Assembly (NCBI RefSeq): GCF_000517445.1 | Contig: NZ_CP006965.1 | Location: forward strand, 620,001 to 684,000 | Direction of reading: 5' to 3' | Source of the DNA: Thermococcus paralvinellae | Lineage (GTDB): Archaea; Methanobacteriota_B; Thermococci; Thermococcales; Thermococcaceae | DNA length: 64,000 nucleotides | In this document: piece by piece, positions 51,373-57,817 of the stretch | How positions within the stretch are numbered: position 1 is the stretch's first letter | How the letters are laid out: every line of letters begins with the position of its first letter | Position numbers and translations under genes: made by a program | The notes under the pieces: generated by a model | Seen by the model: only the letters and a program-made list of their open reading frames with translations | Told to the model about the DNA's origin: nothing | Database searches by the model: none

Positions 51373-51685
51373 AGAAACCACCGTATTTTATAATGATGAA
51401 ATTCTATAAAAGCTTTGAGTTCACAAAAACCTTTAACCGCTCTGTTTTGAGAAAATGCAAACGTTTAACAAACTTTTCTCAAATAAGTTTTTCTGTTTAG
51501 CAAAATCTTTCGAAACTTTTACATAATAAAAGATGCAGAACGAATAGTTTACGTTCATTAATGACCTGTTTCGAAGCATAACGTGAGATGATGTACTTTA
51601 AAATGCACTATTTTCTTAACCGAAAACTTTATAAAGTCTAGCTACATATGTAATAATGAAGTTACATATGCAGAGGTGATCCGAC
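51373..51685. other. Intergenic region before the secreted-protein cluster
   Basis: The left part should contain the FOR promoter on the minus strand. The middle (51420-51600) is AT-rich with no gene seen. The right end holds a strong BRE/TATA and the palindromic element described separately. Confidence 0.5.
51619..51670 (+). promoter_or_regulatory. Promoter with palindromic operator, copy 1
   Basis: BRE CCGAAAAC and TATA TTTATAAAG (51628-51636) are followed by an inverted repeat CATATGTAA (51645-51653), eight-base spacer, TTACATATG (51662-51670), covering the expected transcript start. A 29-base stretch (51642-51670) is identical to 55909-55937. A repressor binding here would block initiation. 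Confidence 0.75.
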
Positions 51686-52153
51686 ATGAGAAAGAGAATA
51701 TTGGGTATTGGGTTGTTAGCTTTGGCAGTTGGTTTGGTGTTTGGAGCAGTTGCAGCATATCAGGGAGTGCCTGAAAATACAGCACAAACAACAGACAGCT
51801 GCATGTGTGGAAGTTACATCCAAGCAAGATACATGCACGGTCAAAATGGTGACCATGGAAAGGGAACTCCTCAGTTTATGGGACTTGGAGTTAAGGGACA
51901 ATACCTGGGAGAAGCAGAGATTAGTGAAGAGCAAGTGCAAGAGTACTTAAGCAACGTTACCATTGAGAAGTTTGTAACTCCAAGAGGAATCACAGTACAA
52001 AGGCTGGTGCTTGATGGAGAATACATCGGAAAGATAGTTGGCGACTACGACCTCAGCTCACTTGAAGTGTACAAAGCATACGAGACCCAGAATGGAATAA
52101 AAGTCTTCCTGAGCTATGATGGAAACATTGTAGGATTCTTCCTTATGAAGTGA
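51686..52153 (+). CDS. Secreted protein of unknown function
   Basis: This 155-aa protein has an N-terminal signal sequence (RKRILGIGLLALAVGLVFGAVAA), then a CMCGSYIQARYMHG segment with histidines and cysteines that could bind metal, then a 65-residue C-terminal module (EKFVTPRGITVQRL...GKIVGDYDLSS...GIKVFLSYDGNIVGFF). The same module forms most of the protein at 56735. GAGGTGAT lies five bases before the ATG. Confidence 0.68.
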   Translation: MRKRILGIGLLALAVGLVFGAVAAYQGVPENTAQTTDSCMCGSYIQARYMHGQNGDHGKGTPQFMGLGVKGQYLGEAEISEEQVQEYLSNVTIEKFVTPRGITVQRLVLDGEYIGKIVGDYDLSSLEVYKAYETQNGIKVFLSYDGNIVGFFLMK

Positions 52154-52172
52154 TTCTTTCCTTTTATTTTTT
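52154..52172 (+). terminator. T-rich possible terminator
   Basis: A T-rich stretch ending in six T residues directly follows the stop codon, just ahead of the GGAGGT of the next small gene. Partial read-through is likely. Confidence 0.3.
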
Positions 52173-52185
52173 GGAGGTATGGAAT

Positions 52186-52308
52186 ATGAAAATGTTAGAA
52201 AAAGTTAAAACTTTGCTCTCACTACTGATTTTTGAGAAAAAAGATAGTGTTGTTCCTCTACCTGTAGGAGTTGAAAAAGAGGATTGTTCTAAAAGAGATT
52301 GTGGGTGA
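52186..52308 (+). CDS. Small 40-residue protein
   Basis: This short reading frame has a GGAGGT site seven bases before its ATG. The peptide is MKMLEKVKTLLSLLIF followed by EKKDSVVPLPVGVEKEDC and SKRDCG: an amphipathic helix and a two-cysteine tail. The stop shares bases with the next ATG region (TGATG). Function unknown; translation is supported by the ribosome site and operon position only. Confidence 0.5.
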   Translation: MKMLEKVKTLLSLLIFEKKDSVVPLPVGVEKEDCSKRDCG

Positions 52309-52313
52309 TGAAG

Positions 52314-52961
52314 ATGAAGGCGTCAGCTTGGTTAAGGGGAACAGTTGACTTAGTTTTGACAGTAGTGTTTATACTTGTGGCAATATCTGGAATAGCTCTT
52401 TATCAAGCACCACCTGGTAGGGTTGCAGATGCCATTGGCTGGACGTTCTTAGGAGCAACTAAGGATACTTGGGAAACAGTACATACATACTTAGGATTTG
52501 TCATGATTGGTTTAGTGGCAATTCACTTAGTAGTTGGGTTTAATAGCATGATTGTCATGCTTAGATCTGCATTTAAGAAAAGTAGAGTAAAAGTAGCTGG
52601 AAGCTTAGTACTAATTGGTCTAGTACTCGTTGGTGGATACTTTGCCTTTGCTGCACTAACTGCCGAGGAAGAAACTACATACGAGACTACTTCATCTGAG
52701 GGGACATCAGTAACAACAGTTGATAACACAACAATAGAGATAACAGGCTCTATGCTGAAGAGTCTGACGCTGGAACAACTTGCCAAGATGTATGATGTTG
52801 ATCCTCAAAAACTCGTTGAAATCTTAAAAGCAGACTATAATATTGAGGCACAGCCCACCCAGCTACTTGAGACCATAGAAATTAATAATGAATTGGATAG
52901 GGAGCAATTTAAGGAAATTTTGGCTGAAGCTATAGCAAAAGCAAAACAGGAGGGAGGTTAA
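52314..52961 (+). CDS. DUF4405-like membrane protein with extracytoplasmic domain
   Basis: This protein is about 215 aa. Three helices (about residues 7-30, 55-80 and 95-117) resemble DUF4405/cytochrome-b-like bundles; histidines in ETVHTYLGF and LVAIHLVVGF are placed to ligate haem. A threonine/serine-rich linker and a helical domain follow (SLTLEQLAKMYDVDPQKLVEILKADYNI). ATG 52314 fits the GGGTGAT site best; ATG 52308 is possible. Confidence 0.62.
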   Translation: MKASAWLRGTVDLVLTVVFILVAISGIALYQAPPGRVADAIGWTFLGATKDTWETVHTYLGFVMIGLVAIHLVVGFNSMIVMLRSAFKKSRVKVAGSLVLIGLVLVGGYFAFAALTAEEETTYETTSSEGTSVTTVDNTTIEITGSMLKSLTLEQLAKMYDVDPQKLVEILKADYNIEAQPTQLLETIEINNELDREQFKEILAEAIAKAKQEGG

Positions 52962-53192
52962 ATGCCCGGTCCCTATTTTTCAAATTTTTATAGCTATGCT
53001 GAAGGAATAACTAAAACTGACTACTTTATAATCGGACTTTGGATAGTTCTGCTGGTGATAGTTGCATTTTCAATGTATTCCTTGAAAAAATCCATTAATG
53101 AGTTACTTGATGAAGTCAAAGACCTAAATGCAGTAGCACATCAACTGAAGGAACAGAACAAGAGCATTGATAAATTATTAGAGGAGATTTAA
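52962..53192 (+). CDS. Small membrane protein with coiled coil
   Basis: This 76-aa protein has an exposed N-terminus (PGPYFSNFYSYAEGITK), one helix (about 20-42) and a C-terminal coiled coil (SINELLDEVKDLNAVAHQLKEQNKSIDKLLEEI). The layout equals that of the protein at 57617, suggesting paralogs. It directly follows the DUF4405-like gene after GGAGG. Confidence 0.6.
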   Translation: MPGPYFSNFYSYAEGITKTDYFIIGLWIVLLVIVAFSMYSLKKSINELLDEVKDLNAVAHQLKEQNKSIDKLLEEI

Positions 53193-53384
53193 ATAAGTAA
53201 GACTTCCCCAGTAATTTAAGATCAATAAGATCAAAAAGCTGTATCCTGTTATTTCCCAAAATATTTACTTCAAAGTAAGCTTAAACATAAATAAACGTTT
53301 ACAAACGTTGTTTAACACTTGGGAGTATATTGAGCAATAATTGAGCTTAAAATTAAACAAACGAAAACGATATTTGACGATTTT

Positions 53385-53405
53385 GTGAAAAAAGCTTAAA
53401 TATTC
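53385..53405 (+). promoter_or_regulatory. Promoter of the cell-wall-binding-repeat gene
   Basis: GAAAAAAGCTTAAATATT is a BRE/TATA match about 35 bases before the ATG at 53440, with GGAGGTGAT in the leader. The 190 bases upstream hold nothing I recognise. Confidence 0.5.
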
Positions 53406-53439
53406 CATATTTACTAGAAAATAGTGGAGGTGATTGAGC

Positions 53440-54612
53440 ATGATGTGGAAAAAGGCATTATCAATAATATTTGGTTTAATGATGTTAGCAATCCCAGTAA
53501 CTCTCAAACCTGTTAGTGCTACAGATACTACAATAGTGATTCTAGTGAGCAACAACGAGGCAGACTGTGCATTAGCAAATTACATTGCAAACTTGACAGT
53601 TAACGTGGTAGTCGTTAAGACACCATGGGGAGTTTACGATCCAAATGTAACTGCAGAAATAATCAGCTATGCTCCTGATGAAGTCATTATCATTGGTGGT
53701 CCAGTGGCAGTTCCGGAGGAATACGTTGAAGACTTGCAGAACCTGGGCATCACAGTTGAGAGATGGTGGGGAGAAAATAGATATGAAACAGATTTGGCAG
53801 TAATTAAGAATGCTACGGTGAAGTTCCAGCTCCAGTTGCAAAACAGAGTTGTCCTTGTAGCAGGTACAGACCTAGCAGGAATTGAAAAAGCATTGCAGCT
53901 TGCAATCCAAGAAAGAGCAATGATAATTCTAGTTAACCAGACCACAAACATTACGAGAATAATGGAAAGGTTAAGGCTTAGAACAGGAAACTTCACAGTA
54001 GTGGGAACACCCGTTATGAACCAGACAATGCTTAGGATACAGGAGCAGCTTAGAGAGCAACTTAAAGAATGTAACTGTACAAAGGTTCAAGTCAACATGA
54101 CCGCTGAGAGAGCTCTTGAGGCAATACAAATAGCTGAGGAAAAGATAAACACAGCAAAAGAACTAGCTGAAAACGCAACAAATCCGGCCATTGAGAACAT
54201 CATTGCAATTGCAGAGAAGCAGCTTGAAGATGCAAAAGATGCATATAATACTGGAAAATACGGCTTGGCTTATGGCCTTGCAATAGCAGCAAAGTCAAAG
54301 GCTGAAATGGTCATTAAGCTTGCTGGAGAGGACATTAGGAAGATGATAATGAACAATACAAAGATGAGGCTGGAGAGAGAGCTTGTAAGGGTTGAGGCAC
54401 AGATTAGGGTCATGGAGAGGTTAGGTGTTAATATAACAGTGGCACTACAGTTAATGGAGCAGATAAGGGCAGCAATAAGAAATGGTGATTATGACACTGC
54501 TCAGGAGCTCATGATTAAGTTAAGGGAAGAGATCAGGACATGCTATATAGGTGGTAAAGAAATAATCAAAGAGAAAGCCCGCATGCCTGTCGGAAATAGG
54601 GGAAGGCCCTGA
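53440..54612 (+). CDS. Secreted protein with cell-wall-binding-repeat-2-like domain
   Basis: This 390-aa protein has a signal peptide of about 27 residues ending VSA. Residues 30-195 contain IIIGGPVAVPEEYVEDLQNLGITVERWWGENRYETDLAV, the signature of the CWB2 repeat that anchors clostridial S-layer proteins. The rest is a long helical region with repeated AIQIAEEKINTAKELAENA-like segments and many N-x-S/T sites for glycosylation. It may be an S-layer-associated protein. ATG at 53440 follows GGAGGTGAT. Confidence 0.7.
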   Translation: MMWKKALSIIFGLMMLAIPVTLKPVSATDTTIVILVSNNEADCALANYIANLTVNVVVVKTPWGVYDPNVTAEIISYAPDEVIIIGGPVAVPEEYVEDLQNLGITVERWWGENRYETDLAVIKNATVKFQLQLQNRVVLVAGTDLAGIEKALQLAIQERAMIILVNQTTNITRIMERLRLRTGNFTVVGTPVMNQTMLRIQEQLREQLKECNCTKVQVNMTAERALEAIQIAEEKINTAKELAENATNPAIENIIAIAEKQLEDAKDAYNTGKYGLAYGLAIAAKSKAEMVIKLAGEDIRKMIMNNTKMRLERELVRVEAQIRVMERLGVNITVALQLMEQIRAAIRNGDYDTAQELMIKLREEIRTCYIGGKEIIKEKARMPVGNRGRP

Positions 54613-54830
54613 ACTTTCAATCTTTCCAGTTCTTCTTCTGATTTTATTTTGCTTGAATTTAATTCAACAGTAAATGACAGCACTTGGATAAGTGGCAATA
54701 AGACCAGTTGTAGCTTAAATTAGATTTTAATCATATTTTCTAAACATGCAATAAATTTATTTTTGGGTAAAGTTTATTAAGTAGTATTTACAGAGTTAAT
54801 AACGAATAGAAAACATTTTTCTGACCAGTG
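54613..54830. other. Intergenic gap
   Basis: A T-rich stretch follows the stop (54613-54660), then AT-rich sequence with a weak TATA (AGTTTATTAAG near 54770-54780) that may drive the lipoprotein gene. Nothing else seen. Confidence 0.4.
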
Positions 54831-55604
54831 ATGGAAATGAAAAAAATAGGAATACTGGCGTTGATTGGTTTAATTTTGATAGGATTAGTAGCAGGCTGTG
54901 TCAGCAAAACACCCACGCAAACGGTTACTCAAACTCAAACAACTACTTCACCTGCAGCTCAAGGACAACACGGTCCCCCAGAAGGAAAAGGTTCAGATTT
55001 TATTAATGTAGGTGGTGAAGGCAATACCTCTATTGATACCCAAGCATTAAAACAGTACATCGACTCAATTCCAGCAGAACCTCTAACAGAAGAAGAAAAA
55101 CAGGGACTACTTTGGATGAGAGAGGAGGAAAAACTGGCAAGGGATGTTTACTTAACACTCTACGAGAAATGGAAACTTCCAATATTCCAAAACATTGCAA
55201 GAAGCGAGCAGACTCACATGGATTCCGTAAAATTACTTCTAGAGAAATACAACCTCCCAGATCCTGTCGCGGATGAAGTTGTCGGAAAGTTTAGCAATCC
55301 AGAAATTCAAAAGCTTTACAATGAGCTTGTTGAAAAAGGAAGTAAATCACAGATAGATGCTCTCAAAGTAGGAGCAATGATTGAAGAGCTTGACATTGTT
55401 GACTTGCAAAAGTGGATAAGCAAAACGAATAAGCAGGACATAATAACAGTCTATGAAAACCTTATGAAAGGCTCAAGAAATCATTTGAGGGCATTTGTCA
55501 GCCAGCTTAAGAATTATGGAGTGACTTACGAACCTCAATACTTAAGCAAAGAGGAATATGAGCAGATAATAAACAGCCCCATGGAAACAGGTCCAAGTGG
55601 TTGA
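54831..55604 (+). CDS. DUF2202 ferritin-like lipoprotein
   Basis: This protein is about 257 aa. The signal sequence ends in a lipobox-like LVAGC (Cys about 23), then comes a Thr/Gln-rich linker, then a DUF2202 four-helix domain from residue 85: GLLWMREEEKLARDVYLTLYEKW with ExxxARD iron-ligand-like spacing, NIARSEQTHMDSV, and GAMIEELDIVDLQKW. This is the ferritin-like fold without proof of metal. ATG 54831 or 54837; the ribosome site is weak. It is paralogous to the protein at 55953. Confidence 0.75.
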   Translation: MEMKKIGILALIGLILIGLVAGCVSKTPTQTVTQTQTTTSPAAQGQHGPPEGKGSDFINVGGEGNTSIDTQALKQYIDSIPAEPLTEEEKQGLLWMREEEKLARDVYLTLYEKWKLPIFQNIARSEQTHMDSVKLLLEKYNLPDPVADEVVGKFSNPEIQKLYNELVEKGSKSQIDALKVGAMIEELDIVDLQKWISKTNKQDIITVYENLMKGSRNHLRAFVSQLKNYGVTYEPQYLSKEEYEQIINSPMETGPSG

Positions 55605-55773
55605 TGTCTTTTTGTTCCTTATTCTATTCTTTAGGATTAGAATCTCTTTAATACTTTTGCATGTTCTGAACTCTTATAGATATATCTAATCATAAATGCT
55701 CATCTTTTTGGAATTCTGTCTGCAATGAATCTATTAGATTCAAAGAAGAATTCTAACAGTCGGAGGCATAGCA

Positions 55774-55833
55774 ATGCTTCAAATTATAGCTGATTGTGTT
55801 GAGGAAGACTGCCATTCAACTCCTCATAACTAA
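55774..55833 (+). CDS. Possible 19-residue peptide
   Basis: An ATG eight bases after CGGAGG opens a frame reading MLQIIADCVEEDCHSTPHN. Its cysteine pair and acidic run resemble the tail of the 40-residue protein at 52186, so it could be a remnant or relative. Very short; treat as tentative. Confidence 0.2.
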   Translation: MLQIIADCVEEDCHSTPHN

Positions 55834-55885
55834 ACAAGTTTTAGATTGTTCTCACGTTATTCTAACCTCAAGATTCTTTCCCCCA

Positions 55886-55937
55886 ACCGAAAACTTTATA
55901 AACTTAGACTACATATGTAATAATGAAGTTACATATG
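55886..55937 (+). promoter_or_regulatory. Promoter with palindromic operator, copy 2
   Basis: BRE ACCGAAAAC and TATA TTTATAAAC (55895-55903) precede CATATGTAA (55912-55920), eight-base spacer, TTACATATG (55929-55937). Spacing from TATA to dyad equals that of copy 1 at 51645, so both should be bound by the same factor at the transcript start. Confidence 0.75.
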
Positions 55938-55952: not shown

Positions 55953-56678
55953 ATGAGGAAGAAAATATTAAGTTTGGGGTTGTTGGGTTTTATGTTTGGT
56001 ATTATATTTGGTAGTGTAGCAGCAATGCCATGGTGGGCAGATGCATGGGATAGAGAAAGTAGCATAACATGGGATAGGCCATATGTCGCAATCTATGGAA
56101 ACGACACACTCACACAGGAAGAGATTGATGGACTGCTCTGGATGAGGGAAGAGGAAAAGCTTGCGAGGGATGTCTACTTAACACTCTATGAAACGTATGG
56201 TTTGCAGATATTCCAGAACATAGCAAACAGTGAGCAGATGCATATGGATGCAGTATTAAGCCTACTCAAGAAGTACGGGATTGAGGATCCAGCAGTTGAT
56301 GAAGTTGGAGTATTCACAACCCCAGAGCTTCAGGCTTTATATGACCAGCTTATAGCAATGGGAAGCCAAAGCGTTGAAGATGGACTCAAAGTTGGGGCAC
56401 TCATTGAGGAGACAGACATCAAGGATCTGGAGGAGTGGATTGCAAAAACTGACAATGCCGACATAATTCAAGTTTATGAGAGCCTAATAAATGGCTCAGA
56501 GAACCACTTGAGAGCTTTCACAAGAACCCTCAGTGTCTATGGAGTTACCTACGAGCCACAAGTCCTTGATGAGGATTACTACAATGAGATAATCTCGAGC
56601 CCTATGAACACTGGAATGGGTGGAGTTGGTGGATTCAGAGGTAGAGGTATGGGAGGATTTAGAGGAGGAAGATGGTGA
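55953..56678 (+). CDS. Secreted DUF2202 ferritin-like protein
   Basis: This 241-aa protein has a signal peptide of about 27 residues, a DUF2202 helical domain (GLLWMREEEKLARDVYLTLYETYG, NIANSEQMHMDAV, GALIEETDIKDLEEW, GSENHLRAFTRTL), and a glycine/arginine-rich tail (GGVGGFRGRGMGGFRGG). It is closely related to the lipoprotein at 54831 but not lipid-anchored. ATG at 55953 has GGAGGAGG upstream. Confidence 0.78.
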   Translation: MRKKILSLGLLGFMFGIIFGSVAAMPWWADAWDRESSITWDRPYVAIYGNDTLTQEEIDGLLWMREEEKLARDVYLTLYETYGLQIFQNIANSEQMHMDAVLSLLKKYGIEDPAVDEVGVFTTPELQALYDQLIAMGSQSVEDGLKVGALIEETDIKDLEEWIAKTDNADIIQVYESLINGSENHLRAFTRTLSVYGVTYEPQVLDEDYYNEIISSPMNTGMGGVGGFRGRGMGGFRGGRW

Positions 56679-56734: not shown

Positions 56735-57040
56735 ATGGAAGCTGTTAAAATGTTTCACCTCGTTGAATATGGGGAATTTCCAATTGAAGAAATTCCCGTT
56801 GAAGAAGTTGAGGAAGATGCATTAAATGTCTTGAGAAGTACAAAGGTTGAGAAATTTCAGACATCAAGAGGTGTTATCCAAAAGCTCAGTGATAATTATG
56901 GCAATTATGTAGGAAAGATTGTCGGTGATTACTCAATTGAAGAGCTGAGCATTGGAAGCGCTTATCAAACGGCATTTGGAATCAAGGTAACACTTAATTA
57001 TAACGAAAAGGTTGTTGGTTGGCTGTATTTACCAGAGTGA
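56735..57040 (+). CDS. Small protein sharing a module with the secreted protein at 51686
   Basis: This 101-aa protein has no signal peptide. Residues 36-101 (EKFQTSRGVIQKL...YVGKIVGDYSIEELS...GIKVTLNYNEKVVGWLYL) parallel the C-terminal module of the 51686 product; the first 35 residues are acidic. One relative is exported and one is cytoplasmic, an interesting split. ATG at 56735 follows GGAGGATG. Confidence 0.6.
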   Translation: MEAVKMFHLVEYGEFPIEEIPVEEVEEDALNVLRSTKVEKFQTSRGVIQKLSDNYGNYVGKIVGDYSIEELSIGSAYQTAFGIKVTLNYNEKVVGWLYLPE

Positions 57041-57050
57041 GGTGATGGGA

Positions 57051-57233
57051 ATGCCTAGAGGATTTGGAGGACCTATGATAAGAGGTCCAATTTTTGGTAG
57101 AAGAAGATGGGGTTTTGGCTGGTGGTGGGGCTTTGGAATCTTTGGAATATTCCTTCTGCTATTTAGGTTAGCTTTCCTACTGCTACCATTTATACTAATT
57201 GGTGCACTGATCTATCTAATCACCAAGAAATGA
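57051..57233 (+). CDS. Small Gly/Arg/Trp-rich membrane protein
   Basis: This 60-aa protein has an N-terminus rich in Gly, Arg, Pro and Trp (MPRGFGGPMIRGPIFGRRRWGFGWWWGFG), followed by a long hydrophobic stretch (about 30-56). The N-terminus echoes the Gly/Arg tail of the DUF2202 protein upstream. ATG 57051 fits the GAGGTGA site; ATG 57045 is possible. Confidence 0.55.
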   Translation: MPRGFGGPMIRGPIFGRRRWGFGWWWGFGIFGIFLLLFRLAFLLLPFILIGALIYLITKK

Positions 57234-57262
57234 TTCGAAAACTTTTTATCTTTCCTTTTTGC

Positions 57263-57273
57263 ACATAGTATGT
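57263..57273 (+). promoter_or_regulatory. Possible autoregulatory site of the ArsR-type gene
   Basis: ACATA-G-TATGT is a perfect dyad with a one-base centre, followed by AAGG. Its TATGTAA half matches the arms of the palindromes at 51645 and 55912. It lies about 45 bases before the regulator start. Suggestive but short. Confidence 0.35.
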
Positions 57274-57310
57274 AAGGAAATTTTAGCTTATGCAATAATT
57301 TAGATACGTG

Positions 57311-57613
57311 ATGAAAATGGTTAGAAGCATACAAGAGCTGACAGTGATTGCAGAGGCTTTAAGCGTTCCGATAAGAGTTAAGATACTCAAAATGCTCTGT
57401 GAAAAGGAGTGGTACGTTTATGAATTAGCAAAGGAGCTCAACATTTCTCGTCAGCTTTTGTATCTCCATTTGAAAAAGCTTGAAAAAGCAAACCTCGTTG
57501 AGAGTGAACTCCGTCTTGAGCCTGGCGATCCAAGGGCCAAAAAATACTACAAGGCAAAACCTTTTAGGCTCGTAATCGATAATGACATTATAAAAAATCT
57601 GAGGGAGGATTGA
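57311..57613 (+). CDS. ArsR-type winged-helix regulator
   Basis: This protein is about 100 aa: a single winged-helix domain (VIAEALSVPIRVKILKMLCEKEWYVYELAKELNISRQLLYLHLKKLEKANLVES) with a wing (RLEPGDPRAKKYYKA). No metal-binding cysteine pair as in classical ArsR. Being in the cluster, it is the leading candidate to bind the CATATGTAA palindromes. Start uncertain between ATG 57311 and 57317. Confidence 0.78.
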   Translation: MKMVRSIQELTVIAEALSVPIRVKILKMLCEKEWYVYELAKELNISRQLLYLHLKKLEKANLVESELRLEPGDPRAKKYYKAKPFRLVIDNDIIKNLRED

Positions 57614-57616
57614 AAG

Positions 57617-57817
57617 ATGCCTCCATATGGTGGAACATCAAGTGGATGGATTTCAATAACTTTAGGCCTAATACTTATTGCCATTATCGTTTTTGCCTTT
57701 TATCAGATGAACAAAACACTAAACGAGCTCAAACTTGAGCTCAGTAATCTCAGAAATGCCCTAGAAGAAACAAAGAGGTACACTGAAGAAGTTAAGAAGA
57801 AGCTTGAAGAGGTTTGA
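57617..57817 (+). CDS. Small membrane protein with coiled coil
   Basis: This 66-aa protein has an exposed start (PPYGGTSSGW), one helix (about 12-30) and a charged coiled coil (MNKTLNELKLELSNLRNALEETKRYTEEVKKKLEEV). The architecture mirrors the protein at 52962. It lies three bases after the regulator, following GGAGGAT, and probably belongs to the same operon. Confidence 0.62.
   Translation: MPPYGGTSSGWISITLGLILIAIIVFAFYQMNKTLNELKLELSNLRNALEETKRYTEEVKKKLEEV

Follow-up and report, generated by a model that had tools for sequence, protein, structure and literature searches.

This report concerns a 64,000-nucleotide stretch of the genome of Thermococcus paralvinellae (contig NZ_CP006965.1, positions 620,001 to 684,000; hereafter the window), in which a palindromic element is repeated at two promoters of a cluster of genes for secreted and membrane proteins. 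The palindrome is probably the operator of an ArsR-type winged-helix repressor encoded at the end of that cluster (57317-57613; positions are those of the window, and all window features described here lie on the + strand), an autoregulated protein that would block transcription initiation across an extracytoplasmic redox and ferritin-like regulon. In the proposed mechanism, a dimer of the 57317 protein would bind TATGTAA half-sites in inverted orientation, their dyad coinciding with the predicted transcript start, and the bound dimer would block either the recruitment of RNA polymerase or the opening of the start site, after the TATA-binding protein (TBP) and transcription factor B (TFB) have taken their places. 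Repression would extend to the secreted-protein/DUF4405 operon beginning at 51686, the secreted DUF2202 operon beginning at 55953 and a third gene, encoding a DUF2202 lipoprotein, outside the window (G000:C1:1227044), and the regulator would limit its own synthesis through weaker half-sites or through an operon promoter. We infer all four elements of this scheme, namely binding, dimerisation, repression (rather than activation) and autoregulation, from sequence.

The element is the 29-bp sequence CTACATATGTAATAATGAAGTTACATATG, which a previous sequence-only reading had reported as identical at 51642-51670 and 55909-55937; direct reading confirms that no letter differs between the two. Its dyad takes the form CATATGTAA-N8-TTACATATG, with cores at 51645-51670 (predicted operator 1, CATATGTAA-TAATGAAG-TTACATATG, putative transcript start at G51658 on the dyad) and 55912-55937 (predicted operator 2, the same sequence, putative start at G55925). 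Each core lies 10 bp downstream of a TFB recognition element (BRE) and TATA box (AACCGAAAACTTTATAAA), found at 51618-51635 in the first target promoter and at 55885-55902 in the second, and these boxes, earlier described as near-identical, are in fact the same in both. A scan of the window allowing up to three mismatches returned two matches, neither with a mismatch; the expectation from 100 dinucleotide shuffles is 0.03. Because promoter, operator and signal-peptide start are alike at the two genes (51686 and 55953), the exact match of the two copies is probably due in part to common descent (paralogy), and the evidential weight is on a third genomic site and on other genomes rather than on identity within the window.

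The palindrome is rare and specific. A search of the whole 1.96-Mb genome, which the sequence-only reading had proposed, found three sites with up to two mismatches and no matches to reversed-pattern controls; with up to three mismatches, there were four sites (the fourth having three mismatches) and one control match. The palindrome is thus not a general promoter feature; had it been one, the proposal would, by the terms of the sequence-only reading, have been overturned. At the third site (G000:C1:1227044), which stands before the DUF2202 lipoprotein gene, the arms and the spacing from the TATA box are the same and the spacer is different, and all three sites found with up to two mismatches precede genes whose products carry signal peptides.

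Among 94 genomes of the family Thermococcaceae, 132 sites with up to two mismatches were found in 62 genomes, against a single reversed-pattern match (in G004). Geometry was compared over 124 distinct sites from the loci up to L216, those with fewer than 20 flanking bases at the end of a locus being left out. In 114 of these, a TATA box matching at 7 or 8 of 8 letters lies 10-30 bp upstream, and none was found in the other 10; the distance from the start of the box to the palindrome is 17 bp in 71 sites, 16 bp in 24 (together 95 of 124) and 18-22 bp in 19. Of the 114 TATA-bearing sites, 110 have a purine, mostly preceded by T, at position 14 of the palindrome, the first base past the dyad axis; in the window the distance from the TATA centre to this base (G51658) is 26.5 bp. 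TATA boxes are reported to be centred 26/27 bp upstream of the transcript start (PMC6316755), and transcript starts in Thermococcus onnurineus to be of the pyrimidine-purine type (PMC5316973). From this spacing, the purine at position 14 and the published rules together, we infer a transcript start on the dyad; the element would then cover the start, as the sequence-only reading had stated. Start codons typically follow 41-43 bases after the first base of the palindrome (41 nt for 51686). The conservation of the arms is partly imposed by the two-mismatch search, whereas the spacing and the start position are not, and a dyad downstream of the TATA box over the predicted start, as seen with the 16-17-bp spacing, is the geometry of archaeal repressor operators that overlap the start site. 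One group of sites, here called class B (L131, L144 and similar loci), precedes in many Thermococcus genomes a gene for a protein of about 100 residues that has no signal peptide and no Pfam match; the gene stands beside one for a glycine dehydrogenase subunit (named from sequence), and no class B site was found within three mismatches in the genome of the window itself.

The palindrome and the ArsR-type gene occur together. With orthologues defined by an E value below 1e-20 and weaker matches treated as paralogues, the regulator is present in 61 of the 94 genomes (split in G070). Palindrome and regulator are both present in 59 genomes and both absent from 30, the palindrome alone occurs in three and the regulator alone in two (Fisher p 8e-19, in a statistic that ignores phylogeny). 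The two are also close neighbours, for where the regulator contig carries a site (51 genomes), the nearest one is 0.8-4.1 kb from the regulator in 49; in the remaining two (G019 and G037) the distance is 274 kb and 43 kb. In eight drafts the regulator contig carries no site, and G016 and G070, which have no site, were left out of the distance comparison. When the search was widened to the phylum, 61 of 115 genomes had the regulator, and every match listed fell within the Thermococcaceae.

Outside the family, a scan of named contigs yielded 21 relatives, including five loci from Archaeoglobales (L231-L235), one on a contig named only 'archaeon' (L230) and one from Bathyarchaeota (L236), regulator identity at these seven loci being 57-68%. 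In all five Archaeoglobales loci a palindrome precedes a homologous cluster that ends in the regulator (3, 1, 0, 2 and 0 mismatches in L231 to L235), and these sites were equalled in 0, 0, 0, 1 and 0 of 200 shuffles of 2-kb stretches, respectively; in L234, both arms are altered symmetrically (CATGTG/CACATG). The comparison shows sites that are rare and conserved, share a recurrent geometry and, in two archaeal orders, are linked to the gene for the regulator.

The regulator's own promoter carries related sequences. Between a TATA-like box read directly at 57242-57250 and the start codon of the regulator, TTATGTAA-like half-sites recur with a 20-bp period; where the sequence-only reading had noted a related half-site, there are two of the TATGTAA type, 20 bp apart, within 57268-57295 (GTATGTAA at 57268-57275 and TTATGCAA at 57288-57295), a stretch that can also be read as a degenerate palindrome with five mismatches. 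Among 40 distinct regions upstream of the regulator, a half-site pair of period 20 matches at 13 or more of 16 positions in 23, whereas none of the remaining periods between 9 and 31 does so in more than 5; the 40 regions are related, and the 23 are not independent events. Half-sites also stand at the regulator promoter in the two genomes in which the regulator is far from the palindromes (L060 in G019 and L063 in G037). In many other genomes, the regulator gene follows an operon whose promoter carries the palindrome (e.g., L213, L214, L215 and L216). Own-promoter half-sites and operon placement together make autoregulation likely, by two routes. With co-occurrence, linkage and the Archaeoglobales loci, these half-sites make the earlier proposal, that both window genes would be under one repressor, the product of the ArsR-type gene located where the cluster ends, the best-supported reading.

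The sequence-only reading had set the start of the regulator gene at 57311; its conserved start is at 57317. It encodes a protein of 98 residues (Pfam PF01022, 50.7 bits, cut-off 22) with the predicted structure of a compact winged helix (predicted local distance difference test, pLDDT, 95.8). PF01022 and the ArsR/SmtB folds among its matches in the PDB place it in the winged helix-turn-helix (HTH) ArsR/SmtB superfamily, the nearest structure being that of Phr (2p4w; E 5.6e-07 and 1.2e-05 in two comparisons), followed by HlyU, NolR, CzrA and SmtB-type proteins. The recognition-helix stretch ISRQLLYLHL is unchanged in 18 aligned family orthologues and is shared by L230 and L231.

Several observations weigh against assigning the palindrome to the 57317 protein, in addition to the neglect of phylogeny noted above. 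Sites without a regulator occur in G054, G055 and G064, all drafts, in which a looser search found nothing closer to the regulator than E 1.5e-7. The G055 contig (5,377 bp) ends inside the cluster, that of G064 ends 77 bp past one site and one of the G054 contigs with the cluster has a length of just 7,088 bp; gaps in the assemblies offer a reasonable, if unproved, explanation. Conversely, the regulator lacks a site in G016 and G070, likewise drafts (77% and 85% complete). The half-site pair is missing from 17 of the 40 regulator upstream regions, and class B sites stand approximately 19-22 bp from the TATA box rather than 16-17 bp. The Bathyarchaeota copy (CATATGTAACAATTTAGTTACTATG in L236), with a TATA-like box ahead of it, has a right arm one base short, and in L230 no convincing palindrome was found in the 2 kb before the ArsR homologue (best 5 mismatches, equalled by 19 of 200 shuffles). 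Finally, DUF2202 genes, present in 60 of the 94 genomes, show an association with the palindrome nearly as strong as that of the regulator, each accompanying it in 59.

This last association lends some substance to the view that the operator belongs to another transcription factor, encoded elsewhere, with the ArsR-type gene a mere fellow target or neighbour, as does the target-like position of the regulator behind palindromic promoters in many genomes. We nevertheless consider that view unlikely. Palindrome and regulator persist without DUF2202 in G021, G037 and G093, and in a different order, in the Archaeoglobales loci L231, L234 and L235, where DUF2202 was not seen; no second HTH regulator was found among ten cluster proteins scanned; and half-sites remain at the regulator promoter where the regulator is away from its presumed targets.

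Activators in archaea mostly have their sites upstream of the BRE. An activating or dual role for the ArsR-type protein, bound at the palindrome, is more doubtful still, and we give it little credence: the direction of regulation is invisible in sequence and class B sites lie a few bases further downstream, but most sites are downstream of the TATA box over the predicted start, as are those of Pyrococcus Phr, which binds over the start region and represses almost all of its targets (PMC6316755). It is highly improbable that the element acts in RNA as a leader hairpin, or is a mere duplicate of promoter and signal-peptide sequence to which no protein binds, for although the two window copies resemble each other in promoter, operator and the start of the signal peptide, a start at the dyad would leave only the right arm in the transcript and hence no hairpin, and the arms (in part by virtue of the search) are kept as the spacer varies over distant genes, genera and an order.

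If the 57317 protein is the repressor, the question arises of what it senses. Known ArsR metal sites comprise an ELCVCDL-type motif in alpha3 and His/Asp residues in alpha5. These have no counterpart in the regulator, whose alpha3 region reads YVYELAKEL; its single Cys is Ser or Val in some of the 18 aligned orthologues, none of which contains a CxxC motif, its last helix is short in the structure model (89-93), and it scores 45.3 bits against the NCBIfam metalloregulator subfamily, below the cut-off of 55. Direct metal or thiol sensing was accordingly rejected for the known motifs. An ArsR-type gene of T. gammatolerans, tg0841, is induced by Cd, Zn and Ni (PMC3407056); it was set aside as a guide to the inducer, since orthology to the 57317 regulator could not be shown.

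Directly behind the regulator (57617-57817) lies a gene for a 66-aa protein with a membrane span and a coiled coil, the proposed partner of the regulator. A gene for a 65-72-residue single-pass membrane coiled-coil protein follows the regulator immediately at 51 of 52 distinct loci, including those of Archaeoglobales and L230 (membrane spans from hydropathy, coiled coils judged by eye, five incomplete entries set aside), the exception being L236, where the candidate behind the regulator is not such a protein. The two genes often overlap by 4 bases, and the pairing extends from Thermococcales to Archaeoglobales as well as to L230, in which no operator was found. A regulator without a known sensor site, with this membrane gene directly behind it, suggests that the signal reaches the regulator via the 57617 protein, which is the best candidate to relay the inducing signal. 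A membrane-linked switch, in which the 57617 protein would capture or release the repressor according to the state of the electron-transfer proteins (DUF4405/DUF2202) at and outside the membrane, is a tentative suggestion with the odds against it. The cluster contains a paralogue of 57617, likewise a small single-pass membrane coiled-coil protein (52962-53192); genes of the 57617-57817 type are nearly always behind the ArsR-type gene, and those of the 52962-53192 type are behind DUF4405 in many clusters.

The first predicted target (51686-52153) encodes a secreted protein with a signal peptide, an AYQG motif and a C-terminal beta domain; its model has a pLDDT of 69 overall and is confident only from about residue 70, and a fold name was rejected because the best structural matches (Z 4.0) were too weak. 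Next come a DUF4405 membrane protein resembling half of a cytochrome b561 (52308-52961; PF14358, 62.1 bits, cut-off 26.7) and, beyond the 52962-53192 gene, a CWB2/S-layer-like secreted protein that is a recurrent cluster member (53440-54612). A DUF2202 ferritin-like lipoprotein follows (54837-55604), with no palindrome within three mismatches at its own promoter. The second predicted target is a secreted DUF2202 ferritin-like protein (55953-56678; PF09968, 202.7 bits, cut-off 22), succeeded by a 101-aa protein related to the C-terminal domain of the 51686 protein (56735-57040) and a 60-aa hydrophobic protein, also recurrent in such clusters (57051-57233). Stand-alone genes for secreted proteins are also found behind the palindrome in other Thermococcus genomes. 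Two DUF2202 domains share one reading frame in G039:C1:886010-887113 (489 aa) and G063:C181:9045-10151 (468 aa), and DUF2202 genes are split or carry an in-frame stop in G010:C1:33385-33870, G013:C1:1500758-1501241 and G017:C1:361211-361694. Thermococcales are usually said to lack cytochromes; the gene at 52308-52961, from a family that includes heme-b proteins in bacteria, is present in a Thermococcales genome. For one bacterial member of the DUF4405 family, binding of heme b is documented (PMC11334425).

Comparison with characterised regulators places the pair among known kinds. Phr, the heat-shock repressor of Pyrococcus furiosus (PF1790), is, like the 57317 protein, an ArsR-type winged-helix protein, and its bound region overlaps the transcript start; however, it has about 200 residues and a C-terminal BAG-like domain, its consensus TTTA/TGGTAA/AAAA is unlike the palindrome (PMC6316755), and the 57317 protein scores 36.6 bits against the Phr family NF053602, for which the cut-off is 320. 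SurR, the sulfur-responsive regulator of Thermococcales, is a winged HTH protein related to ArsR that governs redox genes, with a CxxC switch and GTTn3AAC-type sites (PMC12162507, PMC8595942). The orthologues aligned here lack that switch, and the 29-bp element contains no GTTn3AAC. The Thermococcales glycolytic motif, TATCAC-N5-GTGATA, associated with TrmBL1, is also unlike the palindrome. TrmBL1 sites likewise lie downstream of BRE-TATA over the transcript start (PMC6316755), and TrmBL1 belongs to a different protein family.

A cluster of the same kind, CL1_0239-CL1_0246, has been described with an ArsR regulator of arCOG01679, a DUF4405 cytochrome b-like protein, two ferritin-like genes, secreted and coiled-coil proteins and an aldehyde:ferredoxin oxidoreductase, and iron-dependent electron transfer was proposed for such clusters (Makarova et al., 2015; PMC5898192, section 3.6); that section names the ArsR regulator and describes no operator, autoregulation or regulon. 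Literature searches for this operator found no printed description among the matches listed and the passages covered, those on DUF2202 (alone or with Thermococcus) and on an anti-repressor gave no match, and those with the palindrome motif strings gave no archaeal paper among the matches listed. The gene cluster has thus been in print since 2015, the operator-regulator pair is newly described, though of a known kind, and what is more unusual in the finding is the membrane partner. An uncharacterised and widely shared archaeal regulator gains a concrete predicted operator, with its geometry and a small regulon, and there is now a regulatory handle on a cluster whose suggested role since 2015 has been iron-dependent electron transfer. 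The 57617 protein is indicated as a membrane partner that may carry the signal and, if the membrane switch proves true, it would provide a sensor-less archaeal ArsR protein with a transmembrane sensor.

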